Virus record (IMG/VR): IMGVR_UViG_3300025314_000014
Span: 1-64,000 of that record
Strand: one strand, 5' to 3'
Length of the DNA stretch: 64,000 nucleotides
From: a virus
The notes under the pieces are model-generated. The model ran no database searches, had not been told where the DNA came from, and was given only the letters and a program-made list of their open reading frames with translations. A program made the position numbers and the translations under genes. This document shows positions 15,540 to 64,000 of this stretch, piece after piece. Position 1 is the first letter of the stretch; every line of letters begins with the position of its first letter.

Positions 15540-16961
15540 CTAAAATCCCTTTATAGAAACGAACCGTCTGGGAGTAGAGTGGGCATCCGCCAGGATGCAA
15601 GCAAAGGCGAGCGCATCCAAGCGGTCATCATGCTTACCAAAGGGTACTGCACATAGCTCCGACTCAACTGAGACTCCATCAACAGTAGGCAAACCTTTCG
15701 GGAGCAGTAGCCTACCACTGGCAAACTCCGAAGAAAGATACATAGCACGGCCAACCTTATCGCGGTCGAGCCCTACTACCTTGTGCATTACCTGTCGACG
15801 AGTCCTATAGGGAATCTCTCTGAATGGGAGATTAAACCTTCGCTTCATGGATTGGAGTATATGGGCCTGGAAGCCTATGGTCTCTATACCAATCGCTCGA
15901 AGCCCTGCAGTTCTCTGTGCCCTCTTGACTATCTCTAACTCACCTTGGCTAACCTCACACCTAACTGCCGAGAGTTCCAGCACATACTTGATATTGCGCT
16001 GTATAGAGAGGCCCACAGAGGCAAATCCCCAGTAGTCGGAATAACTCTTTGCCGTAGCTGCAGGGTCAATTCCCATAAAGATATGAAGAGGAGTATTGGG
16101 GATTGTGTCCTTATCCCAGTAATGAATCTCCTCACGGCGGATGATGTTGCCCTCAGCGGCCTCCGGCTGACACATGAAGGTGAGCGCAAAGAGCATATCA
16201 CCCTTGTCCTGGCGTTTGGCCTCAATCACTTCAGGAGTGAACCGAGTTGGGGAGAGGGTAGGCCCCCAAGGATAGTCCCCAGCAACAGGCATCACTATGA
16301 TTGTGAATCCCATGTCCTCAAAGGTGGGAACCAGGTCTTCAACTCCCCATCGAGTTAGAAGGCCAACAATCCTTCCACCTTCAAGAAGCCTATCAATAAT
16401 TACTCCTCTAACCTTGCTCCTTTGAAGCTCCATTGTAGTAGGACTACGAACATCCTCTTGGTTGGTAGGGTCGTCGATGATGATAATGTCAAAGTGAAGG
16501 CCCTGATAGGGGCCATTCATGCCTGTGGCCATTAGAGTTGGCTCAGGGTCAGTAATGTCTCGCTTTACATACAGGACAGATTTAGTCCACTGTTTCTCAG
16601 AATCCTCTTGGACTCCAAAGGCTGACCTGTAGACATTATTAGACTTAATGGTTTGGCTGATAGCCATTAGCTGCTTCTCAGCCTGCTCACCAGCATTCAT
16701 TAGCCAGAGGATTCTAACGTTACAATTATGCCCAATCGCCCTCTCCACAAAATGTCTAACAGTTGTAGACTTAAAGGTATCAGGAGGACAAACGATAAGG
16801 GTCCTATGGAGAGTTTCTAAACCCTCAGCCCATGCCTCCTGATATAGCTCATATGTGTAGTGGTGGACAGCCTGAGCATAGGTTGCCTGGTCACCTATTT
16901 GAGCAGCCATGACCCTGGCAGCAAACTCCGAGTCAACCCCAGAGGGAGCCTCAACTACCAT
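15540..16961 (-). CDS. terL: Terminase large subunit, phage A
   Basis: 473 aa. ATPase domain: a divergent Walker A, CPPDTFKST (Lys64), then Walker B HFDIIIIDDP (~157-165). Nuclease domain: FMGIDPAATAKSYSD (~residue 300), the first acidic strand of the RNase H-like fold, and further acidic residues near KHDDRLDALA at the C-terminus. It cuts and pumps phage DNA into the head. The Walker A lacks the Gly that normally precedes Lys, which is notable, but the rest is intact and 473 aa is full length. The start overlaps the TerS stop by 11 bases. Confidence 0.9.
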   Translation of the reverse strand: MVVEAPSGVDSEFAARVMAAQIGDQATYAQAVHHYTYELYQEAWAEGLETLHRTLIVCPPDTFKSTTVRHFVERAIGHNCNVRILWLMNAGEQAEKQLMAISQTIKSNNVYRSAFGVQEDSEKQWTKSVLYVKRDITDPEPTLMATGMNGPYQGLHFDIIIIDDPTNQEDVRSPTTMELQRSKVRGVIIDRLLEGGRIVGLLTRWGVEDLVPTFEDMGFTIIVMPVAGDYPWGPTLSPTRFTPEVIEAKRQDKGDMLFALTFMCQPEAAEGNIIRREEIHYWDKDTIPNTPLHIFMGIDPAATAKSYSDYWGFASVGLSIQRNIKYVLELSAVRCEVSQGELEIVKRAQRTAGLRAIGIETIGFQAHILQSMKRRFNLPFREIPYRTRRQVMHKVVGLDRDKVGRAMYLSSEFASGRLLLPKGLPTVDGVSVESELCAVPFGKHDDRLDALAFACILADAHSTPRRFVSIKGF

Positions 16962-17631
16962 CAGACTCCACCACAGAAGTCTCGATTAGTCCTTGCTCCT
17001 GTGCAAACTTTCCATTGGAGGTGAACCTATCCAGCAGCCTCCTAGCAGCAACCCTCTTAGCCTCCTCAGATTCTACTTCCCTTCCGTCAACAATAAACAC
17101 ACCCTTCTCTACGTGAATAGGAGCACGTTCACCATGCTCAGGCTCCAATGCCTTCTCTAATGCGAGTAGGTCCGATGGCCCATAAAGCCTACGAATAACT
17201 TTGAGGTAGTCATACTCAGTCTCCGTAAGAGAGTTGAAGTTATAGGCCGCCCTGTATAGAATCTTAAAGTCACGGCGGAGAGCCAACCTAAAGTTCCTCA
17301 TGAACTCCATACGCAGGATGTCTCTACTGAGAGAGTGCTGAAGGAAGCTGAGCTTAGGCCCCTCTAGCTCCTTGAACTCAGGGTCGTCACGTCTCCACTT
17401 GTTTACCGTATGTTGAGAAACCTCGGCCATAGTGCAGGCCTCACGGACTGAGAACCCACAGGCACGATAGCTCAAATAGGATGCCTTCCGAGGGTGATTA
17501 GATGCTGGCAATCTAGCTTGAAGCATCTCCTCCAGGTCATTCGGCTCTATGTCGAGAGTGCCGGACTCAACCTGTTCAACCTCGTGTAGCTCCTGCTTGG
17601 GACCTATGACAAAGATTTGTTCAGATACCAT
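16951..17631 (-). CDS. terS: Terminase small subunit, phage A
   Basis: I set the start at ATG 17629-17631 (226 aa) because GTGAGG precedes it and a TATAAT box ends 16 bases upstream; the open frame extends 44 codons further into the promoter, which cannot be transcribed from it. A helix-turn-helix (SVREACTMAEVSQHTVNKWR) lies near residue 70, as in TerS proteins that recognise packaging sites. A long helical part and an acidic tail follow. It overlaps TerL by 11 bases. It is the first gene of the rightmost minus-strand operon of phage A. Confidence 0.75.
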   Translation of the reverse strand: MVSEQIFVIGPKQELHEVEQVESGTLDIEPNDLEEMLQARLPASNHPRKASYLSYRACGFSVREACTMAEVSQHTVNKWRRDDPEFKELEGPKLSFLQHSLSRDILRMEFMRNFRLALRRDFKILYRAAYNFNSLTETEYDYLKVIRRLYGPSDLLALEKALEPEHGERAPIHVEKGVFIVDGREVESEEAKRVAARRLLDRFTSNGKFAQEQGLIETSVVESDGS

Positions 17632-17647
17632 TTGATTCCTCACCATC

Positions 17648-17676
17648 ATTATAACATAAGACAATAAGCTTGTCAA
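17648..17676 (-). promoter_or_regulatory. Sigma70-type promoter for phage A packaging/head operon
   Basis: TTGACA (17671-17676, minus strand), exactly 17 bases, TATAAT (17648-17653). Transcription would begin about ten bases before the TerS ATG, giving a very short leader. Both hexamers are consensus. Confidence 0.85.
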
Positions 17677-17752
17677 GTGCACCGAGGGTAATTTGAGTAT
17701 ATAGTTTGGTATAGTTGTGTGTTTGAGTATATATAAGATTTGCACTTGACAA
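17670..17752. repeat. 12-bp inverted repeat overlapping both divergent -35 boxes
   Basis: TTGTCAAGTGCA (17670-17681) and TGCACTTGACAA (17741-17752) are perfect inverted copies, each covering a -35 hexamer of the two divergent promoters. An operator for one regulator that controls both arms is inferred. Confidence 0.55.
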
Positions 17753-17775
17753 AAACACACCACACTTGCTATAAT
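17746..17775 (+). promoter_or_regulatory. Sigma70-type early promoter, phage A rightward
   Basis: TTGACA (17746-17751), 18-base spacer, TATAAT (17770-17775), followed by AAGGAGAG and the ATG at 17803. It drives the long plus-strand early operon. Confidence 0.8.
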
Positions 17776-17802
17776 AATAGTGAATAACCAATAAGGAGAG
17801 CT

Positions 17803-18033
17803 ATGGAAATTGACCGCAAGGTATACACCGTCAAAGAGGTCGCTGCACAGTTAGGGATAAGTCCCGAATCCGTTTACAGGGCTGTACGAAGAGGTACGAT
17901 ACCGTCTGTATGGATAGGTGGACGTGTGCTTATTCCTATAGAGGCTTTTGAGAGGCTGCTGGAACCTATAAGAGCTTACCAGGAGAAAGAGAAGGCCTTT
18001 AGAGCGGGTGACGGCCAATCAGGTTCCATATGA
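17803..18033 (+). CDS. Excisionase-family (HTH_17) DNA-binding protein, 76 aa
   Basis: The N-terminal 50 residues are a MerR/excisionase-type winged helix: YTVKEVAAQLGISPESVYRA, then VRRGTIPSVWIGGR and RVLIPIEAFERLL. First gene of the early operon, with AAGGAGAG before ATG, and it overlaps the ATPase gene by 4 bases. Without an integrase in view, a role as early regulator (perhaps at the divergent operator just upstream) or replication-origin binder is more likely than excision. Confidence 0.75.
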   Translation: MEIDRKVYTVKEVAAQLGISPESVYRAVRRGTIPSVWIGGRVLIPIEAFERLLEPIRAYQEKEKAFRAGDGQSGSI

Positions 18034-19136
18034 CCTCATATAAAGACATAGACAGGGTTTTCCGCGAAACCTTCCTCATGGAAGACCCTTATGTGCTACC
18101 TGTAGTGCTCGCCACAGTTCTGTCCCACTATACAAAAGGAGACCCTATCTGGCTAATGCTCATTGCGGAGGCAGGTTCGGGAAAAACAGAGCTACTGAGT
18201 TCTTTGGAGGGTATACCACAGGTACAACCTCTAGATACCATCTCACCTAGGACCTTCCTCTCAGGATATGAACGTTCTGATAAGGGACAAACTAGCCTAC
18301 TCAAGCGCCTTGGAAACCCCATATTTACAATAGAGGATTTCAGCACAGTTCTTTCCGAACATGCCCCTGACCAGAGAAACATAATGGGGCAGTTACGAAA
18401 GATATATGATGGGAGATATGTTAAGGATGTAGGAAGCGAGAAGGAATCTATCACCTGGAGAGGAAAGGTCACCCTTATTGCCGGCTGCACGCCCGCTATA
18501 GACGGTAAACAAGGAGGAATGGCAAGCCAGGAACTAGGAGAGCGCTTCCTAGACTATCGATACCATATTTCTAATCCTCTTGCTACAACAGAAGCAGCAC
18601 TTCGACAGAATGGAACTGAGGCTGAAACAAGAAGGCAGAGAATGGAACTTGTAGGACAATTTGTTGAGGGCTATAACCTCAAGATGTTATTTCCCCAGAT
18701 TCAGGGCCCTAAACTTCCACCTGATATTATGAAGAGATTGCCTGCTCTAGCAGATTATACCGCCCTATGTAGGTCAGAGGTGTCAAGAGAACCTTATACC
18801 CACGAAATAACCAGACTCCCTCAGAGGGAAACTGGAACACGATTGGTGAAGCAGCTAGGCAAACTCGGAGAGTCACTTCTACTTGTTGACCAATCCCTCA
18901 ACATATGGTCAATCCTATACAAAGTTGCAATGGACAGTATTCCTCCTCTTCGCCTTGCAGTCCTCCAAGCCCTTACAGAGCCCAGGAAAACAAGCGAAAC
19001 CGCAAGACTGCTGAGGTTGCCAAATGTGAGTGTCCTAAGGGTACTCCAGGACCTTGAAGCATTGGATGTTGTTGAGTCATCAGGAACCGAGGTAGGAGGA
19101 TATGTTTGGAGGAGACTGCTGTGGATTGAAAATTAG
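18030..19136 (+). CDS. AAA+ ATPase with C-terminal winged helix (putative replication factor)
   Basis: 368 aa. Walker A AEAGSGKT (residues 47-54), Walker B-like IFTIEDF after FLSGYERSDKGQT, and an Arg-rich region beyond, typical of AAA+ helicase or initiator modules. The last ~60 residues (RKTSETARLLRLPNVSVLRV then LEALDVVES) form a winged helix. A replicative helicase, helicase loader or origin-binding ATPase is likely, since DNA polymerase and recombinases lie in the same operon and no other helicase is seen. GTP/ATP preference or target cannot be read from sequence. Confidence 0.65.
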   Translation: MTSYKDIDRVFRETFLMEDPYVLPVVLATVLSHYTKGDPIWLMLIAEAGSGKTELLSSLEGIPQVQPLDTISPRTFLSGYERSDKGQTSLLKRLGNPIFTIEDFSTVLSEHAPDQRNIMGQLRKIYDGRYVKDVGSEKESITWRGKVTLIAGCTPAIDGKQGGMASQELGERFLDYRYHISNPLATTEAALRQNGTEAETRRQRMELVGQFVEGYNLKMLFPQIQGPKLPPDIMKRLPALADYTALCRSEVSREPYTHEITRLPQRETGTRLVKQLGKLGESLLLVDQSLNIWSILYKVAMDSIPPLRLAVLQALTEPRKTSETARLLRLPNVSVLRVLQDLEALDVVESSGTEVGGYVWRRLLWIEN

Positions 19137-19240
19137 AACAGAATTAGAACGCATATCCCATCTTCTATATTACACACATTACTATAGTAAGGGTGTCACC
19201 CCAAGTCTGGGATTCACCAACTGATAAGAAGATTATACAC

Positions 19241-19471
19241 ATGAGCAAACCCATCCGCTATCGTCGCTGTCCTGTCTGCCACACAACTATGCCTGCAAAC
19301 CGCCTACTATATGTAGACACATTGGGTAAAAGAAACTGGAACCATATTGGTAGAGCCCTACGTCAGTGCCCTGAGTGTGGTAGCTCAGGTCCTACGTGTG
19401 ACTTTCCTATTGTTCGTGATGGTGAGATGGCTAGTCTATTGCAGGAGTATGAGGAGTCCCTAGGAGGTTAA
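19241..19471 (+). CDS. Zinc-ribbon protein, 76 aa
   Basis: RRCPVCHTTMPANRL and RQCPECGSSGPTC form two knuckles with ~30 residues between them, a classic zinc ribbon. I use the ATG at 19241; a frame 16 codons longer has no ribosome site. First of four adjacent Cys-rich mini-genes after the ATPase. Confidence 0.65.
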   Translation: MSKPIRYRRCPVCHTTMPANRLLYVDTLGKRNWNHIGRALRQCPECGSSGPTCDFPIVRDGEMASLLQEYEESLGG

Positions 19472-19473
19472 TT

Positions 19474-19677
19474 GTGGCTGATTGCAGCAAATCCTCTACT
19501 GGTGCTCACTACTGGATTATCTCAGGTCAGAATGGCGCTAAGGTTCCTGGCAAGTGCAAATACTGTGGAGAGGAGCGGCTATTTAAGAATACCTTTGAGC
19601 CGGAAGGAAATCCCACTATTGGAAAATACAGGTACCGCGACCCTATCAGCGAGAGAGCCAGAAGGGATTACGGATGA
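19474..19677 (+). CDS. Conserved phage zinc-finger mini-protein, 67 aa
   Basis: GTG start with AGGAGG 6 bases upstream. The sequence GAHYWIISGQNGAKVPGKCK and CKYCGEERLFKNTF resembles a widespread small protein type (His-His/Tyr-Trp-Ile ... Gly-x-Cys-x2-Cys-Gly-x2-Arg-x-Phe) found in phages and in some bacterial groups. One CxxC plus upstream His/Cys may bind zinc. Function unknown. Confidence 0.65.
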   Translation: MADCSKSSTGAHYWIISGQNGAKVPGKCKYCGEERLFKNTFEPEGNPTIGKYRYRDPISERARRDYG

Positions 19678-19787
19678 TTGCAGGCTATCTCAGGCGCCTC
19701 AATAGGAAGTGCTCTGTTTGCGGTTCTAGGCTTTACCTCCCAGATATTACATTCTGGATTTGCCTTAGATGCTATTTGGAGGCCTAA
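19674..19787 (+). CDS. Zinc-ribbon micro-protein, 37 aa
   Basis: ATG overlaps the previous stop (ATGA) and its TAA overlaps the next ATG (TAATG). Two CxxC knuckles (KCSVCGSRLY and ICLRCYLEA) with 17 residues between make a minimal zinc ribbon occupying nearly the whole chain. Confidence 0.6.
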   Translation: MIAGYLRRLNRKCSVCGSRLYLPDITFWICLRCYLEA

Positions 19788-20044
19788 TGGTCCTATATTG
19801 CGCTCACCACTTTACAGCCCCATTTGTTCGCGTTACTGAGGTCAAATGTCCTAGTTGTGGACTGCTCTGGACTTATACCTGTGACTCATGTGGCTTCCAA
19901 CGTAGTGTTCCCTTTGTAGCCTCAGTGATGGATTATGTAACTATCTCGAAGACAGACGAGTCTGACCACCTCTGTGGGTGTGGGGAGCCTGTGTTAATTG
20001 CCTCTGAGCCAACTGTTGAGGTTCTTTTCCCCCAATTTTCCTAA
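19787..20044 (+). CDS. Cys-rich zinc-ribbon protein, 85 aa
   Basis: Starts at 19787 through TAATG coupling. Three Cys pairs: VKCPSCGLLW, YTCDSCGFQR and HLCGCGEPV, so one or two zinc ions. The first 20 residues also hold CAHH. Ends the first zinc-ribbon cluster; about 220 bases without a convincing gene follow before the inserted minus-strand cassette. Confidence 0.6.
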   Translation: MVLYCAHHFTAPFVRVTEVKCPSCGLLWTYTCDSCGFQRSVPFVASVMDYVTISKTDESDHLCGCGEPVLIASEPTVEVLFPQFS

Positions 20045-20267
20045 AAATATGGTTAGAAGGCAGAAAGCAAAGGAATGACTGTCGCGCGTAGGGGCATAGC
20101 TTAGGCCACACTTGCGCAATTCGGCTGTAGGATGGTTCTCATTGGTGGTGCTGTAATGGGCCAATGGTTTACCCCAGAAAAGAAAATGGAGGCCTCTGTT
20201 GGGCCACACAATGCGTCTGGTGTCATGTGAGATGGTTGCCAGCACTGAGGATGACACCAATGGTTAC

Positions 20268-20321
20268 CAAAGGAAAAAGAAAGCCCCCCATCAGTGGCCG
20301 GGCATTCACGATGGAGGGCTT
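20268..20321 (-). terminator. Rho-independent terminator of the 20344-21012 cassette
   Basis: On the minus strand AAGCCCTCCATC (20310-20321) pairs with GATGGGGGGCTT (20281-20292), one G-T pair, and is followed by TCTTTTTCC. It lies about 20 bases after the stop of the minus-strand gene. Confidence 0.88.
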
Positions 20322-20343
20322 ATCGCTCTATTGGGAGTGTGGT

Positions 20344-21012
20344 CTAGCCGCTTACAGTGTGGCCGGCAGTCGCCAGCTTGCTAATGATACTGGCGCGATT
20401 CAATGGGCCGGAGTCTGGGAAGAACACTTTGCAGGCAGCGCTGGCGCTGGGGTATTCCGTCCCGTTGACAGTCAGTGGAACGGACTTCGCGCCACCACGA
20501 CCTGCGCCACCACGCTTGACGCCTTTGGGCGCAGTCGGGATGTTCGGGCCCTGCCACTTAGCGGGCGAGATGACCAGTTCTGGCGTCCCGATACCACTAG
20601 CCGCCGACGTGAAACCAGTAACGTTGAACTTCTTCAGCACATCGGAGCAGGCACTAAGCGCATCCCGAATGGCACTGGCAATGAGTGTACCAGCTTCGCG
20701 CAGTTCAGCCGTGGTGACTTCCCATTCGGCAACCTGGATGCGCTTCCGAGCCACGTCGATACTGGCGTTCACGGTGTCAACGGCTTTCTGGGCATCGCGC
20801 ACGTAGCCTGCCATCTCTAGCAGTTCATCAACGCTTGCTGACTTCTGGGCTTTGCCGAATGTGGACTTAGCACTGTCCAAGTCGCGCTGTGCCTGAGCCA
20901 AATCGCCAGTGGTAAGCCGCTCGACTTGGGCGTTCAGGTCTTCCACTGTTGGGGGAACCGACCCAGCAGCTTTGAGTCCAGCGTTTCGGTCTTTTTCCAG
21001 TTCTGTGACCAT
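20344..21012 (-). CDS. Moron-like protein with coiled coil and C-terminal DNA-binding-like segment, 222 aa
   Basis: Start chosen at ATG 21010-21012, with AAAGGAG upstream. Residues ~20-115 are a Gln/Glu/Lys/Ala-rich coiled coil (VEDLNAQVERLTTGDLAQAQ). A Gly/Lys/Arg linker (KGVKRGGAGRGGAK) leads to a ~45-aa C-terminal unit (VNGTEYPSASAACKVFF, then RASIISKLATAGH) of the NUMOD-like helix-turn-helix type seen on DNA-binding proteins. It points against all its neighbours and has a private promoter and terminator, the hallmark of a moron cassette. GC content is visibly higher than in flanking genes. Function unknown; superinfection control or defence is a guess. Confidence 0.7.
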   Translation of the reverse strand: MVTELEKDRNAGLKAAGSVPPTVEDLNAQVERLTTGDLAQAQRDLDSAKSTFGKAQKSASVDELLEMAGYVRDAQKAVDTVNASIDVARKRIQVAEWEVTTAELREAGTLIASAIRDALSACSDVLKKFNVTGFTSAASGIGTPELVISPAKWQGPNIPTAPKGVKRGGAGRGGAKSVPLTVNGTEYPSASAACKVFFPDSGPLNRASIISKLATAGHTVSG

Positions 21013-21062
21013 TCGATTATCTCCTTTCAATGGTCTGATTTTGCTGCCCGACCACTACATTC

Positions 21063-21090
21063 AATATACCATGACCCTGCACAATGTCAA
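21063..21090 (-). promoter_or_regulatory. Promoter of the minus-strand cassette
   Basis: TTGACA (21085-21090), 16-base spacer, TATATT (21063-21068) on the minus strand, 50 bases before the cassette ATG. Confidence 0.7.
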
Positions 21091-21116
21091 TAGCCTGGTT
21101 GTGAAGATTTCAATAT

Positions 21117-21132
21117 TACACGGTAACGTGTA
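21117..21132. promoter_or_regulatory. Palindrome TACACG-GTAA-CGTGTA, possible operator
   Basis: Perfect 6-bp arms around GTAA, upstream of the cassette promoter. It could be a repressor site or a cruciform; too short to be sure. Confidence 0.3.
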
Positions 21133-21252
21133 GTGGAGAATTGATTAGGCTAATTAGCAGTTCTTGGGCTGGCAGGAATTGTTTAGCTGTATAAGCTAAT
21201 GCACATCATACAACTAGCACACAAGTTCTATGCCCAAGTTGACATAACTAGC

Positions 21253-21281
21253 TTGACAACGCCAAGCATCCTATGTATAAT
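21253..21281 (+). promoter_or_regulatory. Second early promoter, phage A
   Basis: TTGACA (21253-21258), 17-base spacer, TATAAT (21276-21281). It restarts plus-strand transcription just right of the inserted cassette. Confidence 0.8.
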
Positions 21282-21328
21282 GGATAGGACAGATGGGGAG
21301 CAGAGCCATAGAGGAGATACAGGCCATC

Positions 21329-21505
21329 ATGGGTAAGGTTCTACCGTTTAAGAGAGTGAGCGACCCCGCTCTGGTTTGCAGGGACTGCGGGCAACCGACA
21401 AGAGGAACGAGAATCCTCTGTGCCGGCTGCATATTCGGACGTATGGGAGAGAGTGCAGCCAGGGAGATGAGTGCTGACGAGGAAGGGCATCCTTCAAGTC
21501 CGTAG
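21329..21505 (+). CDS. Zinc-knuckle protein, 58 aa
   Basis: ATG at 21329 preceded by AGGAGA. CRDCGQPTRGTRILCAGC is a compact four-cysteine knuckle. First gene after the 21253 promoter. Function unknown. Confidence 0.6.
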   Translation: MGKVLPFKRVSDPALVCRDCGQPTRGTRILCAGCIFGRMGESAAREMSADEEGHPSSP

Positions 21506-21641
21506 GCATGGTAGCTACCATGTGAGCGGACAGCCACGGGGTGCAGGCGTGTCAACAACATGTTTCGCCTGCAATGCATCGAAGTTGACCGATGCCTTCC
21601 CCCGCCAGCACTTGAGGAAGGGGAGCAGATGGACAAGCTAG
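21471..21641 (+). CDS. Small basic protein with CxxC, 56 aa
   Basis: GTG start (21471) with GGGAGA before it; overlaps both neighbours in other frames. It holds TTCFACNASKL and a basic C-terminus (PRQHLRKGSRWTS). A weaker alternative start is GTG 21522. Supported mainly by ribosome sites and composition. Confidence 0.45.
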   Translation: MLTRKGILQVRRHGSYHVSGQPRGAGVSTTCFACNASKLTDAFPRQHLRKGSRWTS

Positions 21642-21835
21642 TTGACGAGGACGGTGAATATTGCCGCCTAACGAGGAATGAACGGAGGGTGCTCCAACGT
21701 GAACTGAACATGATGGGCTATCGCTACCTAGGTGGTGAGAAGCCTTCTCTAAAGGAACGACGGCGTATCAGGGAAATCCAGGCACTCCTCAGTTCTGACG
21801 TGGGGATGTGGGAACGCATTAGCAGAGCGCGTTAG
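21629..21835 (+). CDS. Small charged helical protein, 68 aa
   Basis: ATG at 21629 follows AAGGGGAG; the longer frame from 21560 lacks a site. Rich in Arg/Glu (LTRNERRVLQRELNMMGYRY; KERRRIREIQ), a likely helical hairpin that may bind nucleic acid. Not recognised. Confidence 0.55.
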   Translation: MDKLVDEDGEYCRLTRNERRVLQRELNMMGYRYLGGEKPSLKERRRIREIQALLSSDVGMWERISRAR

Positions 21836-21873
21836 AGCCTCTGAGCACTTAGAGAGGAAAGGAGGTGATACAG

Positions 21874-22071
21874 ATGGCAACTCCAGCCGAACGCAAGCTC
21901 ATAGAGGACTGGCTAGACGAGGAAAGCCAGAGCCTCGATACACAGCCTGGTCAGACGGCGCTAAAGATGGCACTGTTTAGTGCCATTGACGATGATGGGG
22001 ATTGGCTGTATAACCAGCTAGGCAGGACGGCCAAGCGAATCGACCCGCGACTGTTCGAGCCAGACCGCTAG
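21874..22071 (+). CDS. Small acidic protein, 65 aa
   Basis: ATG at 21874 behind a strong GGAGGTGATAC site. Acidic and helical (AERKLIEDWLDEESQS ... DDDGDWLYNQLGR). Family not recognised. Confidence 0.6.
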   Translation: MATPAERKLIEDWLDEESQSLDTQPGQTALKMALFSAIDDDGDWLYNQLGRTAKRIDPRLFEPDR

Positions 22072-22101
22072 CACCTCAGTGAGGAGAGGAGGTGATTACA
22101 A

Positions 22102-22782
22102 ATGGAAATGCCTGACGACAATATCCTAGAGAAGATTCGTGCGTTACTCCGACTGGCGAATGACCATGCGGCTACAGAGGCCGAGGCATCACTGGCAATG
22201 GAGCGAGCGCAGGCATTACTCCTCAAGCATAACCTCGATATGTTGGATGTCAAGCTGGACGAGGATAACTTCTCATTTGAGGTTCTAGATGAGGAGTTCA
22301 ACATCGGACGGGCTGACTGGAGGAGCACTCTGCTAGGTGTAATAGCTAGGCAGAACTTCTGCCGTGTCATTACCCATAGGGCATTTGGTCGGCATCCTAG
22401 CATCATTGGTAGGAAATACAACATTGAGGTTGTGCAGGAGCTATCGCTGTGGCTCGCAGGCCAGCTTGACACCCTGGTCATGGCCGACATCAATGCGCGA
22501 GAGTTCCTAGGTGAGACCGTTGACCGCACCTGGAAGGATTCATTCCTCTATGGCGCGATTAACCGAATCAAGGAGCGGCTTATCGAGGTTAGCTCACAGA
22601 ACAATGGGCAGACACAGGCTCTTGTGGTGTGCCTGGATGAGGAAAACGATGCCTTCATCAAGCAGGCATATCCCAATCTAGGACATGGTAGGACATACTC
22701 CATCGATGCAAGGGCTTACCAGGCTGGTGTGTCTGCAGGTAACACAGTGTCAGTCCTACCAAGCCGGCGACAAGTCAGATAG
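22102..22782 (+). CDS. DUF2786-domain protein, 226 aa
   Basis: The first ~45 residues (ILEKIRALLRLANDHAATEA, then ASLAMERAQALLLKHNLD) are a clear DUF2786 domain, a helical unit of unknown function in phages and bacteria. The rest (residues 60-226) resembles the domain that often follows it and contains IGRKYNIEVVQELSLWLAGQ. No catalytic motif is evident. A strong GGAGGTGATTACAA site precedes the ATG. Such proteins often sit beside DNA-processing genes. Confidence 0.7.
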   Translation: MEMPDDNILEKIRALLRLANDHAATEAEASLAMERAQALLLKHNLDMLDVKLDEDNFSFEVLDEEFNIGRADWRSTLLGVIARQNFCRVITHRAFGRHPSIIGRKYNIEVVQELSLWLAGQLDTLVMADINAREFLGETVDRTWKDSFLYGAINRIKERLIEVSSQNNGQTQALVVCLDEENDAFIKQAYPNLGHGRTYSIDARAYQAGVSAGNTVSVLPSRRQVR

Positions 22783-31020: not shown

Positions 31021-31568
31021 ATTGGAAGGACCGGCTGACGGAGGATGAGCGGGAGGCAGAGAAACGGCACTTCGAGAGTTTCAAGGGGCGTATCTGCAAT
31101 CAGTGTGGCGAAGGATGGCCATGCGTAACAAAGGGCACTTACGGTTCCCTCACCCGCGCCCGCCTTGAGGTCGCAGCGAAGGAATCCGAGTTGTCGGTTG
31201 TTCAGCGAGACTTGAACGGTGCGAATGCCTACATCGAGGAGGTTCGCAATCAACGAGACAGAGTGGAGGCTGAGGTGGCAGCATACAAAGCGGCGCGAGA
31301 CTGCACTATCAACAACGGCTGGTTACAGGAGGGTTTAGAGTGTAGTGTAGATGGTGACCCTGCTTGTGGCCTTCATCTAAAAATGCAGTTGGATGCATCG
31401 CGGGCGCTGGTGGCGGAGCAGAGGAGAGCGATGGGTGTAATTGAGCCTCGCTTTGTTCCGCGCGGAGGCTGCGACTCTCCTGGGCATGCCAGCCCAGACA
31501 TTTGCTGGTGGTTGGATACCCTTGCTCTTACCGAAGCTGATATGTTGGAGCGGATGGAGGTGAAGTAA
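31008..31568 (+). CDS. Coiled-coil Cys-containing protein, 186 aa
   Basis: Residues ~45-90 form a long coiled coil (LEVAAKESELSVVQRDLNGA). Cys pairs flank it (ICNQCGEGWPC; ECSVDGDPACGLH; GGCDSPGHASPDIC), possible metal sites. Composition is GC-rich like the end of the preceding gene, so both may have arrived together. Family not recognised. Confidence 0.55.
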   Translation: MDTVDWKDRLTEDEREAEKRHFESFKGRICNQCGEGWPCVTKGTYGSLTRARLEVAAKESELSVVQRDLNGANAYIEEVRNQRDRVEAEVAAYKAARDCTINNGWLQEGLECSVDGDPACGLHLKMQLDASRALVAEQRRAMGVIEPRFVPRGGCDSPGHASPDICWWLDTLALTEADMLERMEVK

Positions 31569-40696: not shown

Positions 40697-42058
40697 TCAT
40701 ACCACCATCCCAAACCTGCGCCGTTCAGCGGGTGCTGCCCCTGGAGGGTCTTCCCAAAGAGGGTCTCCAGGTGGGGTTGGCGTATCGGCAGGAGCATCGA
40801 TATAGTCCCCAATGGGGATGGCATAGAACTCCCCCATCTCCTCGGTGTTCCGCGACTTCAGACCAGCCTGGAGGGCGTTGAACAGGGTCGGCGTCCAGGC
40901 GGAGCCCTCCGGCGTGGTACGCATCAGACGGGAGAACCAAAGCCGCGAAGGCGTGCCATTGGCATTATAGCCGCTACCGTAATCGCCGCTGAGGTCGGTC
41001 AGGCTGCTGCTGGTAGTGCGGGCGTGGGGGTAGTGGCCCTCATAGGCAGGAGCAAAACCTTCACCCCTAAAGGTCGATATGACCTGCTCCCAGCACAGCA
41101 GCACGGCCTCCACCGTGGCTGTCTGTCCAGCCTCGTCCACCAGGTCGGGAAAGCCGAATATCTCAAGCTGGTCGGCGGCCCCAGGGGTGCAAACGTTGGT
41201 GTCGGTGTTGGCATCCCCCACGCCTGCGTCCTTCTCGTCATCCACGTCCAGGTGCGAGCCCGTCCAGGCGTTCTCGCCCGTGACGTTCTTGCGGGCCTGG
41301 TAACATATCGTCCGTAGATTCAGCCCTGGGCGGTCGGCCTCAGCGTCTCCCTCGGCGCTGCACCAGTCATCGGCCACCACTTGCATACCAGTATCAGCAC
41401 CCTTAGCGCCCGCAACCTTTCGGGAGTCAGGCAGGAGATGGCCAGAGGTGCGAACAGTGCCGGAGGTAACAGCCGCTCCCGCCGTCCCGTCCACCCATAG
41501 CTTGCAGTTGTCTGTCCCGCCCGCTGTGTTCAGGGCCAGGACGATATAGCGTACCGTCGTCCCGGCTGTGAAGGTAGCACTGTTGCCGCCCAGTTTAACA
41601 TCGAAGGCACCAGTGTTGGTGAAACGCTGGATGGTGAATTGGAAGGTGGCGGGCGGGCCAGCCGAGACGATAGCGACACCTACACCCAGGTATTTGTCCC
41701 CAGTGGCCGGTGCCCAATGCTCAGTACAACGGGCAGCAAGGTAATCATTGCCGACAGTTGGGGGTGTGTCAAAGCCGATGATGGCCACGGGGACAACCCA
41801 GAATAACCAGTCCTTGGTGCGGGCGAACACATGGCCACAGCGGGCGTCAATGCCAGACGAGAAACCGCCGCCGAGCATCCGATGAGCGAAGTAGCCACTG
41901 CGCTTAGTGGACTTCTCAGGAGCGGGAGGGCCAGACCCCCCTACGTTCCAGTTGGGGCCTGTGATGAACGTCTTTGTCTGCGTGTCATTGGCGGAATAGA
42001 GATAGCGGATGGGGCCATGCTCCCAGCCGCCCCCTACGTGTAGCCAGCTACGGCTCAT
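40697..42058 (-). CDS. LamG-like tail protein, 453 aa, shared by both phages
   Basis: Complete copy of the gene whose N-terminus is at 1-787. Central jelly-roll character (TFQFTIQRFTNTGAFDVKL, CKLWVDGTAG) and a C-terminal beta region ending in a Pro-rich tail (PADTPTPPGDPLWEDPPGAA). A sugar-binding tail protein is inferred. Downstream of base 41272 it is nearly identical to the fragment at the window start; upstream bases 40697-41271 have only this one copy. GC-rich compared with 36500-40650. Confidence 0.75.
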   Translation of the reverse strand: MSRSWLHVGGGWEHGPIRYLYSANDTQTKTFITGPNWNVGGSGPPAPEKSTKRSGYFAHRMLGGGFSSGIDARCGHVFARTKDWLFWVVPVAIIGFDTPPTVGNDYLAARCTEHWAPATGDKYLGVGVAIVSAGPPATFQFTIQRFTNTGAFDVKLGGNSATFTAGTTVRYIVLALNTAGGTDNCKLWVDGTAGAAVTSGTVRTSGHLLPDSRKVAGAKGADTGMQVVADDWCSAEGDAEADRPGLNLRTICYQARKNVTGENAWTGSHLDVDDEKDAGVGDANTDTNVCTPGAADQLEIFGFPDLVDEAGQTATVEAVLLCWEQVISTFRGEGFAPAYEGHYPHARTTSSSLTDLSGDYGSGYNANGTPSRLWFSRLMRTTPEGSAWTPTLFNALQAGLKSRNTEEMGEFYAIPIGDYIDAPADTPTPPGDPLWEDPPGAAPAERRRFGMVV

Positions 42059-42059
42059 C

Positions 42060-42845
42060 CTAGTACCCCCGCCAATGCCAGCCTGGGTTCAGCCAGTCAT
42101 CAGGTTGGGGTAGGGGCCGCACGATTGGAGGTAGAGCAGAGTAGACAAAACAGTGATGGGGGGCGGGCTGTTGCAAGTCAGCTTGGGCCTCCAGCCAGCG
42201 GGCCAGCGCATAGCGGCTGGGCTCAGGTAGAGCGGGTAGGTTCATAGCGTCCAGATGAATGCTAGCTCCGTCCGGCCACGACACGTCCGTCGCCAGGGGC
42301 GCGCCCTGGAATAGCGGTGTCCCCTCCTTGAGTGCCTTGACCAACTCCTCAAACCGCTCGGCCAACCCAGGGTAAGGTTGGAACACCAGACGGAAGGCTG
42401 CTGCCAGTTTCTCCCTCTGCGTGACCGTAAGCCCGTCCCACCAGTAGGTCTTGGAGGTGTCCCAGGAGGCTCTGGCATAATCGCCCCCCAACACGTAGCT
42501 AGCAACGGCTATGACCTTGGGCCTGGCAGTAGCAGCGACTAGGGCCACCCTGTCTCTGATGATGGTGCCCACGGGCTCGTGGTGTAGAGACCCGATGTCG
42601 GCGGGCCACAGAGAGCCGGAGAGGTTCTGATTGCCCCGCCAGTAACAACTATAGGTCTGGGCGGCTCGCCAATCAGCAGGGCCGGTGTTGCCTATGAAGT
42701 CCGTACCGCGAATGTCCCCCACAAAACGAGTGCCGAGGTCGAACGTGCAACCCCGAACCAGAGACTCGCGGGCATGACCGTCCGGTCGTGTGGAGGCGTC
42801 AAGTACCTGGCCGGTCAAGTCTTGGTTAGTGAGAACTACTCTCAT
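42060..42845 (-). CDS. Tail-associated protein, 261 aa (phage B copy)
   Basis: Paralogue of 789-1586. N-terminus (LTNQDLTGQVLDASTR, CTFDLGTRFVGDIRGTDF) and C-terminus (LNPGWHWRGY) match; the centre (VALVAATARPKVIAVASYVL onward) does not. Overlaps the fibre gene by 4 bases. Unknown function; probably receptor-side tail component. Confidence 0.7.
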   Translation of the reverse strand: MRVVLTNQDLTGQVLDASTRPDGHARESLVRGCTFDLGTRFVGDIRGTDFIGNTGPADWRAAQTYSCYWRGNQNLSGSLWPADIGSLHHEPVGTIIRDRVALVAATARPKVIAVASYVLGGDYARASWDTSKTYWWDGLTVTQREKLAAAFRLVFQPYPGLAERFEELVKALKEGTPLFQGAPLATDVSWPDGASIHLDAMNLPALPEPSRYALARWLEAQADLQQPAPHHCFVYSALPPIVRPLPQPDDWLNPGWHWRGY

Positions 42846-58212: not shown

Positions 58213-59619
58213 TCACCGCATCTCCATAATTATCCTTGGTCGATTGAGGATTGTTGAAGGATGCCTCATTTTGGTAAGGTTGTCAATGAGTAAAAAAAGT
58301 GCGTCCAAGTCGTCATCGTGCCCTGTGTTCGGGTAATGAGTCAATTGGTACTCACAATCAGGGAACCACTCCTCTCCAGAAGGGAAAAGTACGTGTCCAC
58401 CGTGCAAAAACGGTGCAATTGCGTGGGCGCGGGTCATTTTCCCACCTTTGTAGGGCATTGCTTGGACTGGAAGCATCGAGTGGGCCATCAAAGTCTGTAC
58501 AGCGGGAGTTCCAGAGGCCGCATCTTCGACCCAAATGGCAAATTCGTTCCATTTTTGGGCAGATTCAGCGATTTGGTCGAGCAAACCAGGAAGTCCCCAG
58601 CGTCCTTTGATGCGGTCAAGGATGTAAATACGTCCGTGCTTGTCCATCCCCCCAATATACCCAACTGTGAAATCGTTTTGTTCCTTCTCTTTGAACGCTG
58701 TATCCCACGAAGAGGCCACAAGTAGGTCAAGCTCATCCCTTATATACTTCGGAGGACGACTGTAGCTGTCCCAAGTGTGCAGTTTACGGATGATTTGGGC
58801 CTCTCCACCCTTGGTATCACCCATATATTGCATGGCAAACATGGCCGGAGATTGGTAACGCTTGTTAATCAGGAACTCAGCGGGATAAGCCTCCTCCCAA
58901 TATGACTTGTCACCGCGCAAAAGTGCGGCAGTGTGCAAGACTTTTACTCCCTTTTGGCTCAATTTCCGACCGATAAAGTCGGCATCACTCCACCTAGTGC
59001 CAATTACTACTTCCCAAGCGTCTGAGGTGAGGCGCGTGGAGATTGCGTTGTCGTAGTTTTCCCAAACTTTGTCTAGGTTTGCCTTGGTTCCTGAGTTCTT
59101 TTGGTCGTGGGGGTCGTCAATGACCAATCCATTGAGTCTATATGCCACGACTGCCGAAGTAGTGCCACCAGCCCTAAGAGTTGGGTGTGGGTCAGCGAGG
59201 TCTGTTCTAGAGACTTGGAACTCACTGGTGCCCCATCTTCGCTTGTCAGGTCGGACTTCTGGGAAGGTAATGCGATAGGGGAGACTAGACTCGATGAGAT
59301 TCCTAATGGCGTAACTACGACTCCAGCCAACGGAGTCCGCGTAGGAGAGAAGTCCGTAATGTCTGTCCGGTAGCCTACCAAGCATCCATGCAGTAAATCC
59401 CACACCGACAAGCTGGGTCTTTCCACTACCAGGGGGAGCGATGATGATAAGTTTCCGCCCATTTGGGTCATCTCCTATCTTTTGTAGTTCTTCAATCCAC
59501 TGTTTTTGGTGCGCTGCGGGGTTGAATCCAAGTACAAAGCGGCAAAACTCGGCAAAATTCTGCCTAGCACGTTCCCCTCGCTTTATTAACTTTTCTGTTT
59601 TACTACTTCCCTCTATCAA
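58213..59619 (-). CDS. terL: Terminase large subunit, phage B
   Basis: 468 aa. Walker A APPGSGKT (61-68), Walker B LVIDDPHD (~residue 168), coupling/motor region, then nuclease strand SSWDTAFKEKEQNDFTVG and C-terminal HDDDLDALF supplying metal acids. Packages DNA. Canonical Walker A, unlike the phage A enzyme. Start overlaps TerS stop by 17 bases. Confidence 0.92.
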   Translation of the reverse strand: MIEGSSKTEKLIKRGERARQNFAEFCRFVLGFNPAAHQKQWIEELQKIGDDPNGRKLIIIAPPGSGKTQLVGVGFTAWMLGRLPDRHYGLLSYADSVGWSRSYAIRNLIESSLPYRITFPEVRPDKRRWGTSEFQVSRTDLADPHPTLRAGGTTSAVVAYRLNGLVIDDPHDQKNSGTKANLDKVWENYDNAISTRLTSDAWEVVIGTRWSDADFIGRKLSQKGVKVLHTAALLRGDKSYWEEAYPAEFLINKRYQSPAMFAMQYMGDTKGGEAQIIRKLHTWDSYSRPPKYIRDELDLLVASSWDTAFKEKEQNDFTVGYIGGMDKHGRIYILDRIKGRWGLPGLLDQIAESAQKWNEFAIWVEDAASGTPAVQTLMAHSMLPVQAMPYKGGKMTRAHAIAPFLHGGHVLFPSGEEWFPDCEYQLTHYPNTGHDDDLDALFLLIDNLTKMRHPSTILNRPRIIMEMR

Positions 59620-61836: not shown

Positions 61837-62184
61837 CTAGACCGCTAGGGACAGCCGTTCGGGTTCCCAGGTTTTAATACGGTGGCAGATTGCACATAGG
61901 ACAGTGCATTTTGCCACCTCTTTTTTTAGTCTGTTGAGGGTGTAGCTACCCACCATCGCACTGACCGGAGCAAACTTAGTGGATGGGTCAATGTGGTCTA
62001 AGTCCAAAGCGTAGGCATGCTCGTTGTATCCACAATGTTGACACCCTAGAGACAATATGACATGGGACACATTGTACGCGCCAACAGACGGCGCGTTTTT
62101 TGTTGCCCATACCCCAACAGCGGCCCCATATCTGTTGACCGCACATGCGCGTGCTGGCGACCCTCTGACAGCCGAAACGCGCAA
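61837..62184 (-). CDS. HNH endonuclease
   Basis: The HNH core is clear: GCQHCGYNEHAYALDLDHID (first zinc Cys pair, Asp-His), then KKEVAKCTVLCAICHRIKT (second Cys pair and His). Residues before GCQHC are uncertain: TTG 62184 and a GTG close to the core are both possible. A mobile, self-spreading nuclease typical of phages. The promoter at 62348-62376 points at it. Confidence 0.72.
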   Translation of the reverse strand: MRVSAVRGSPARACAVNRYGAAVGVWATKNAPSVGAYNVSHVILSLGCQHCGYNEHAYALDLDHIDPSTKFAPVSAMVGSYTLNRLKKEVAKCTVLCAICHRIKTWEPERLSLAV

Positions 62185-63110: not shown

Positions 63111-64000
63111 ATGAACGCACCTCAATGCATCTTTGGACATGGTGTTGCTGTTGTTACTTGGACTCTTTCAGAACCGCGTAACATAAAACAATACAAGGAG
63201 GATGTTTATCTCTGTAAGGACTGCTACAACGAAATAATCAGATTAGCAGGAACATTAGGATATGCGGATGCACCATTTATGTATATGGTACAAATGCATG
63301 ATGCCCTTGTCTCTGCCCATTCTCTGTCTTGTGTAATCTGTCTATTTGAGGGAACGAGAAGTATCGAGGGCTTGTATTGGTGTGCGAAGCATTACCAAAC
63401 TGCCGAAAAGGTAGCACAATCTACTGGGGAGACTTTTGACCTATTATCGGCTGTGCAAAGATTCCTGTGGAAACTGCAATTAGAGTGTGAGGAATGCAAG
63501 GAAGATACTAATAGGTGTCCAAATTGTGCGGAGTGTGAGTGTGAGGGGTGCGACCATTGGTGTTCAGACTGCAATGAGTTCGTGAGGGGGTTTTCGGTTT
63601 GCGGGGACTGTGGAGTTCGGAGTTGTTCTAGCTGCGCCTCTTGGTGTGGCGATTGTGGCACCTGTACTGATTGCTGCCACTCATGCAGACGTTGTGGTGA
63701 GTGTACTAGCAGCGCCTCTTGGTGTGGCGATTGTGGCACCTGTACTGATTGCTGCCACTCATGCAGACGTTGTGGTGAGTGTACTAGCAGCGGTGCATGT
63801 GACTGCGGGCACGATTCCGAATCTGATGTGGCTGTAGGAGATTGGGGGTTGCCCATTGTGTTTAAGCTACACCAAGCGGCGGCCACATTCTATACTCTAG
63901 CAACTATGGCCGAGCGTGACCCAAGCTACAAGCAAGAGTTTGAGAACTACGCGAAGGAACTGGCCGAAGTCTTTGCTCCTTATCTAGACATGGCTGTTGG
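63111..64000 (+). CDS. Large Cys-rich protein with tandem zinc modules (cut by window end)
   Basis: ATG 63111 (GGAG upstream). The frame is open to the last base, at least 296 codons. Residues 1-125 have scattered Cys pairs (LCKDCYNE, SCVICLFEG) typical of zinc sites; residues ~125-235 are extraordinarily Cys-rich, about one residue in four, with CxxC spacing throughout: ECEECKEDTNRCPNCAEC, then a 26-residue unit containing WCGDCGTCTDCCHSCRRCGE twice. After this the chain becomes a normal helical domain (VFKLHQAAATFYTLATMAER). It could bind many zinc or other metal ions. Family not recognised. Confidence 0.72.
   Translation, partial: MNAPQCIFGHGVAVVTWTLSEPRNIKQYKEDVYLCKDCYNEIIRLAGTLGYADAPFMYMVQMHDALVSAHSLSCVICLFEGTRSIEGLYWCAKHYQTAEKVAQSTGETFDLLSAVQRFLWKLQLECEECKEDTNRCPNCAECECEGCDHWCSDCNEFVRGFSVCGDCGVRSCSSCASWCGDCGTCTDCCHSCRRCGECTSSASWCGDCGTCTDCCHSCRRCGECTSSGACDCGHDSESDVAVGDWGLPIVFKLHQAAATFYTLATMAERDPSYKQEFENYAKELAEVFAPYLDMAV
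63634..63789 (+). repeat. Perfect 78-bp tandem duplication
   Basis: Bases 63634-63711 and 63712-63789 are identical, in frame with the Cys-rich gene (26 codons per unit). No third copy. Confidence 0.92.

Follow-up and report, generated by a model that had tools for sequence, protein, structure and literature searches.

The hbs mRNA of Bacillus subtilis encodes the nucleoid protein HU. A 14-nt pairing between its 5' and 3' UTRs protects this message from RNase Y (Braun et al. 2017, via the review PMC7821165). The same review treats only a few bacterial mRNAs with 5'-3' pairing and reports that functional 3' UTRs, that of hbs among them, are not conserved in close relatives. Here we describe a phage gene family whose predicted mRNA, as read from the sequence, begins with 7-14 nt complementary to the 3' portion of the loop in its own terminator. 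The gene lies in a stretch of 64,000 nt, analysed as a whole and called the window below, which is part of the 68,370-bp virus record G000. A narrow literature search returned no account of pairing between a terminator loop and the 5' end of a phage mRNA.

Judged by its signals, the segment 20268-21090 is a genuine transcription unit composed of an extended -10 promoter, an ORF, and a terminator (Table 1). The promoter score was reached by none of 100 mononucleotide shuffles of the 250-nt upstream region, and the terminator fold (z-score -2.35) was equalled by 4 of 200 shuffles. A generic terminator scan missed this hairpin because its loop is longer than 8 nt. The best explanation of these elements is a monocistronic mRNA of ~780 nt, transcribed from a sigma-70-type promoter, whose predicted start (+1, ~21056) was placed from the promoter spacing. 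A search of positions 17500-22500 against Rfam gave nothing above the gathering score, with one sub-threshold hammerhead match elsewhere in that region. The first-pass annotation, made from the sequence alone, had proposed a self-contained, independently transcribed unit with its own -35/-10 pair and terminator, as well as a second promoter at 21253. All of these elements were confirmed, and the cassette occurs in either orientation among relatives. The zinc-ribbon genes that it had placed around the unit are indeed small Cys-rich ORFs on the plus strand, although their Pfam matches are sub-threshold only. The complementarity between the leader and the terminator loop had been overlooked.

Table 1. 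Features of the transcription unit, its product and its surroundings (window coordinates)
Feature	Position	Strand	Basis or remark
ORF, 222 codons from ATG	21012-20344	minus	ORF list
Promoter TTGACA-N16-TATATT, TG ahead of -10	21063..21090	minus	score 11/12
Predicted mRNA 5' end (AGTGGTCGGGCA), leader half of the end-to-end helix	21045..21056	minus	starts 7 nt past -10
Shine-Dalgarno AAAGGAG, outside the paired segment	21021..21027	minus	read from sequence
Intrinsic terminator hairpin, 12-bp stem (one U.G pair), 17-nt loop	20281..20321	minus	
Terminator tail TCTTTTTC	20280-20273	minus	
3' part of terminator loop (TGCCCGGCCACT), partner of 21056-21045, 12 bp including one U.G	20293..20304	minus	
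Small Cys-rich ORFs on either side of the unit	19193-20044; 21293-21505	plus	
Downstream early-gene promoter TTGACA-N17-TATAAT	21253..21281	plus	12/12
222-aa protein: predicted helical hairpin (~23-121), Gly-rich basic linker (~164-176), C-terminal b-b-a-a domain (~178-222)	20344..21012	minus	
C-terminal domain type 1 and part of linker, exchanged among relatives	20347..20508	minus	

The pairing was first seen during a comparison of the relatives' cassettes, in which the sequence right after the -10 matches the terminator loop. The 13-nt leader/loop duplex of the window has a calculated energy of -24.1 kcal/mol. To place this value within the 68-kb record, each of its 32 terminator-like hairpins was searched across 3 kb upstream. 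The hairpin of the unit ranked first (score 31.0, against 25.5 for the next), and the best partner of its loop falls directly behind its own promoter.

An iterated profile search that drew on terminase relatives identified 31 ORF matches, corresponding to 22 distinct sequences (all E <1e-3), which include the window protein and that of G001 (42.8 kb; polymerase 50% identical), where a similarly built minus-strand ORF occupies the same place. Used as a lone query, the window protein found no homologue in viral_contigs or phages, and the G001, L018, and L022 members found none in phages. A terminase profile gave no confirmed match in genome_contigs, and further terminase and family profiles revealed nothing new in viral_contigs except three distant terminases. 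Among the related loci, 23 extend at least 3.4 kb upstream of the terminase, and 22 of these have a homologue there, at a distance of 1.3-4.8 kb; the sole exception is L038 (3.5 kb upstream; terminase 49% identical). In L010, L019, and L022, the family gene and the terminase point in opposite directions. A genome search detected exactly one family gene in each of the nine records of at least 40 kb and a family gene in 27 of all 43 records, the remainder being mostly short fragments. An own terminator was found in 21 of the 22 distinct members.

The GC content of the minus-strand gene (0.589) exceeds that of the whole record (0.508), as the first-pass annotation had indicated. However, this does not mark a recent import: every one of the 22 distinct family genes is GC-richer than its own locus, and the GC-richness is therefore a family trait. 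On these genome comparisons, the unit belongs to the standing gene content of a clade of ~41-45 kb phages. The annotation had instead favored a moron, an accessory cassette for superinfection exclusion, defence or host modulation, which a self-contained, GC-rich cassette on the strand opposite to its neighbours would suit. Its conserved, syntenic, single-copy presence across the clade, together with the shared GC-richness, argues against this assignment, which we consider extremely unlikely. The presence/absence comparison that the annotation had suggested went against it, as the relatives carry the gene, and we found no support for a role in superinfection exclusion or defence.

The family allowed the pairing to be examined by covariation. 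Across the 22 family genes, the scores of each leader with its own loop total 530, compared with a maximum of 414 in 20,000 permutations; the loops were defined without reference to the leaders, and near-duplicates were kept. For 12 representatives, the own-pair sum of 314.5 exceeded the maximum of 280 among 100,000 re-pairings, and when L019 and L110 were added (14 representatives), again none of 100,000 re-pairings was as good. These permutation tests replace pair counting on a MAFFT alignment of the joined segments, in which gaps were introduced. Among the seven pairs adjoining the 3' arm, the first is represented by three Watson-Crick pair types and each of the other six by all four. Covariation was reportedly used by Gultyaev in 1997 as evidence for hok.

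The place of the pairing is also shared. The paired segment begins 5-9 nt past the -10 in 17 of the 22 members. The other five are L021, in which the script mis-called the -10, L035, whose contig holds no upstream sequence, L022, in which the segment begins 15 nt past the -10, L019, and L110. No leader/loop pairing was found in L110. L019 is without a terminator and has an 18-bp duplex between the 5' and 3' UTRs instead; its gene seems to run into the downstream gene. In a blind scan of 44 sequences (644,753 bases, including overlapping pieces of one record), 127 hairpins were screened for loop complementarity starting 4-9 nt after a promoter scoring at least 9/12. The scan returned 20 rows, of which 19 belong to 18 family loci; the remaining row is a 52-codon gene in L035. 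The family label used in the scan is positional, covering this 52-codon gene too and missing L014. Among the controls, two Markov-shuffled sets produced one match from 153 hairpins, and four other phages produced one match of six bp (46 hairpins in 181,332 bases).

The 52-codon gene (L035, 1027-782, minus) is convergent to the family gene and has its own promoter, and its terminator loop pairs with its own 5' end over 9 bp. Its leader has ACATTAACAAC in common with several family leaders. No homologue of this gene was detected in the other loci.

The geometry was fitted in 19 members, leaving out L019, L110, and L037 (a near-duplicate of L018). The leader helix (7-14 bp) abuts the 3' arm of the terminator with 0 nt between them in 17 of the 19 and lies 1 nt off in two, and the terminator stem and the leader helix could be fitted jointly, without overlap, in every case. 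The 5' linker measures 2-9 nt and lengthens with the helix (Spearman 0.80, p 4e-5). When the leaders of other members were fitted (299 fits), 36% were abutting and the correlation was -0.07. A wobble test for the sense strand counted 24 G.U against 23 A.C.

Taken together, the covariation, the place, and the geometry agree with an H-type pseudoknot whose leader helix would be stacked on the terminator stem, and the RNA pairing is very probably real. The abutting helices and the scaling of the linker fit the needs of such a coaxially stacked structure and would not arise from a repeat acting in DNA. DNA-level inverted repeats, as operators for autoregulation, recombination sites or mobile-element ends, are accordingly a highly improbable alternative: the segments do flank the gene in the DNA, and the cassette varies in orientation, but they co-vary and are not conserved, whereas recombination ends or operators would be. 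Moreover, the two copies sit at unlike places, one at ~+1 and the other next to the 3' arm, inside the terminator loop. An invertible or mobile element was rejected, since the repeats are unconserved and the promoter faces the gene in every member where it is seen.

Antitermination or attenuation would have the leader compete with terminator folding and thereby set read-through. The bases that partner the leader do sit within the terminator hairpin. However, both helices can be fitted at once, with a linker matched to the helix length as if they coexisted, and read-through in the window would proceed antisense into the neighbouring genes. We therefore rejected this very improbable mechanism on the fit of both helices.

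Another alternative is that the segments pair between molecules. Either two mRNAs might dimerize, or the leader might be bound in antisense fashion by the 3' terminator piece or by a convergent small RNA, under a private code resembling that of plasmid copy-control loops. Such a code would account for sequences that differ between phages, with the own loop being the best partner for 10 of the 12 leaders. In G001 (L003), a possible convergent RNA of ~200 nt (18912-19118, plus) carries a leader, GATGCCCGTCACG, that can pair with the loop of the shared bidirectional terminator on the same strand and with the leader of the family mRNA. Its promoter is weak (8/12), though, no counterpart was found in the window, and the small RNA is thus not conserved. 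The geometry would suit a designed intramolecular complex and a bound complex equally well. We consider pairing between molecules improbable.

Translational control over a long distance, as in hok, aapA, and icaR, would keep the closed full-length mRNA poorly translated until processing or a signal opens it. Most bacterial 5'-3' mRNA pairings known so far, to the extent that they are treated in PMC6733600, PMC3868564, and PMC7821165, serve translation control. In addition, the window leader can form an alternative local hairpin (AGTGGTC/GACCATT, -7.8 kcal/mol, against the far stronger leader/loop duplex), and two RNA states are therefore possible. However, the paired segment is at the extreme 5' end, beginning 34-117 nt upstream of the start codon (L019 and L110 left out), and the Shine-Dalgarno sequence, sequestered in the known cases, is free here. 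This reading, the main rival, appears unlikely, and membership among such inhibited mRNAs was rejected because the window Shine-Dalgarno sequence lies outside the paired segment.

We instead favor closure of the mRNA as a protective device: the transcript is probably a self-closed phage mRNA protected at its 5' end, a function that we infer from the position of the pairing. As the pairing covers the first nucleotides and leaves the Shine-Dalgarno sequence free, protection of the 5' end would be its most direct function. According to the review PMC3997798, RNase E attacks a monophosphate end >10-fold faster when that end is accessible than when it is base-paired, and the RppH of B. subtilis requires at least two unpaired 5' nucleotides. 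Stacking of the leader helix on the terminator stem would close the finished transcript end to end. In the closed state, neither pyrophosphohydrolase nor 5'-end-dependent nucleases would gain access to the 5' end, and the 3' end would be guarded by the terminator. Because the 3' partner is made last, complete transcripts alone would be protected; these would become long-lived and support steady protein synthesis. A helix of 12-14 bp inside one loop is sterically demanding, which counts against this explanation. We give the protective function an even chance, and the explanation as a whole, in which a standing clade gene has a self-closed mRNA shielded at both ends and a nucleic-acid-binding product, might equally well prove right or wrong.

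A broader proposal is tentative and, in our estimate, rather doubtful. These stand-alone clade genes could represent a bacterial counterpart of the closed-loop mRNA, in which the 5' end and the terminator loop, matched by a private code, would fold into an end-to-end pseudoknot; this structure would certify that a transcript is complete and protect or license it. Between phages the code would diversify, perhaps against cross-pairing in co-infection, and its occurrence at the unrelated 52-codon gene would make the device portable.

In the AlphaFold2 model of the whole protein (mean pLDDT 85.7), a long helical hairpin (23-55 and 61-121) is followed by a Gly-rich linker, which is disordered, and by a small C-terminal domain (pLDDT 82.9 when modelled separately). 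The two helices support the coiled coil noted in the first-pass annotation. A NUMOD-like end, which it had also suggested, gained weak support from the fold and none from sequence matches. The Foldseek matches of the C-terminal domain were weak, the top one being the DNA-binding domain of I-TevI (E 6.4). Upon re-alignment of five candidates, only I-TevI (1i3j, Z 4.2) and I-HmuI (1u3e, Z 4.0) reached Z >=2, and a Z of ~4 is weak, within the range of common small-fold matches. None of seven type-1 C-terminal domains matched a Pfam family, NUMOD included, at E up to 10. For the whole model, Foldseek gave nothing below E 0.001 in PDB or BFVD, and the VIA-align matches of the protein are coiled-coil look-alikes. 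Sequence searches of Pfam, PHROGs, NCBIfam, and PDB likewise gave sub-threshold or coiled-coil matches only.

The two parts of the protein differ in their relationships. The N-terminal part of the window protein is 39-44% identical to those of L025, L041, L018, and L013, with 28-30% identity in the C-terminal part, while the corresponding values for L034, L030, and L040 are 22-31% and 63-70%. G001 provides a second such contradiction between N- and C-terminal identities, with a less certain split point. Based on the models, the protein appears to be a helical hairpin joined to an exchangeable C-terminal domain that weakly resembles the DNA-binding domains of I-TevI and I-HmuI. In contrast to these enzymes, the family protein has no nuclease domain, and it has no sequence match to NUMOD families. 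We infer that it may be an oligomeric nucleic-acid-binding protein, with either phage or host DNA as its target or with a regulatory role.

The record itself looks composite. Its start (1-982) recurs at 41272-42253 with a 91% match, and its right end (68272-68370) recurs at 31146-31244 with a 95% match. There are two large terminases (15540-16961 and 58213-59619; 22% identical), and, judging by length and position, the portals, capsid genes, and further structural proteins also seem to be present twice. By comparison, each of the eight other related records that reach 40 kb has a length of 40.3-45.0 kb. Most simply, the record would be an assembly that joins two related circular phages, A (~41.3 kb) and B (~37.1 kb), that share ~31-42 kb; alternatively, the record may be a real phage with two head modules. 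The 20268-21090 gene lies in the part unique to phage A. In the early region of phage B, an HNH-like ORF (61837-62184, minus) with a promoter-like site upstream (62376-62348; 10/12, TG) occupies a place comparable to that of this gene in phage A. Further along, a very Cys-rich ORF (63111-64481, plus), whose end lies past the window, contains a 78-bp tandem repeat (63624-63779, 97% identical).

The family provides a deep natural covariation series, with 12 distinct helix codes, linkers of matching length, and a second, portable case. Whether end-to-end closure certifies or protects complete bacterial mRNAs becomes testable with it, and its leader and terminator are ready-made parts for studies of mRNA stability. 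The apparent end-to-end design, kept in relatives despite changed letters, may protect or control the message. The protein family is without a Pfam, PHROG or NCBIfam assignment, and its modules are exchanged at the Gly-rich hinge.

Among the known systems, the icaR mRNA of Staphylococcus aureus likewise has base pairing between the 5' and 3' UTRs inside one mRNA. According to PMC3868564, however, the partner of its Shine-Dalgarno sequence is a motif that lies 260 nt beyond the stop codon rather than in a terminator loop; this pairing inhibits translation and provides a target for RNase III. The hok and aapA type I toxin mRNAs share with the family a complete, stable mRNA with 5'-3' pairing; in the account given in PMC6733600, they differ in that the Shine-Dalgarno sequence of a small toxin ORF is sequestered and an antisense RNA is present. 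A type I toxin-antitoxin system was rejected, as the product is a 222-aa soluble helical protein rather than a small hydrophobic toxin. By analogy, the hbs mRNA would be the nearest precedent for protective closure. Both have extended complementarity between the 5' leader and the 3' UTR within one transcript, beyond chance in the family described here, and HU has a parallel in the family product, a candidate DNA-binding protein. Unlike in hbs, pairing in the family starts right at the predicted 5' terminus, its partner is the loop of the terminator, next to the 3' arm, and the paired letters co-vary among the phages of a clade.
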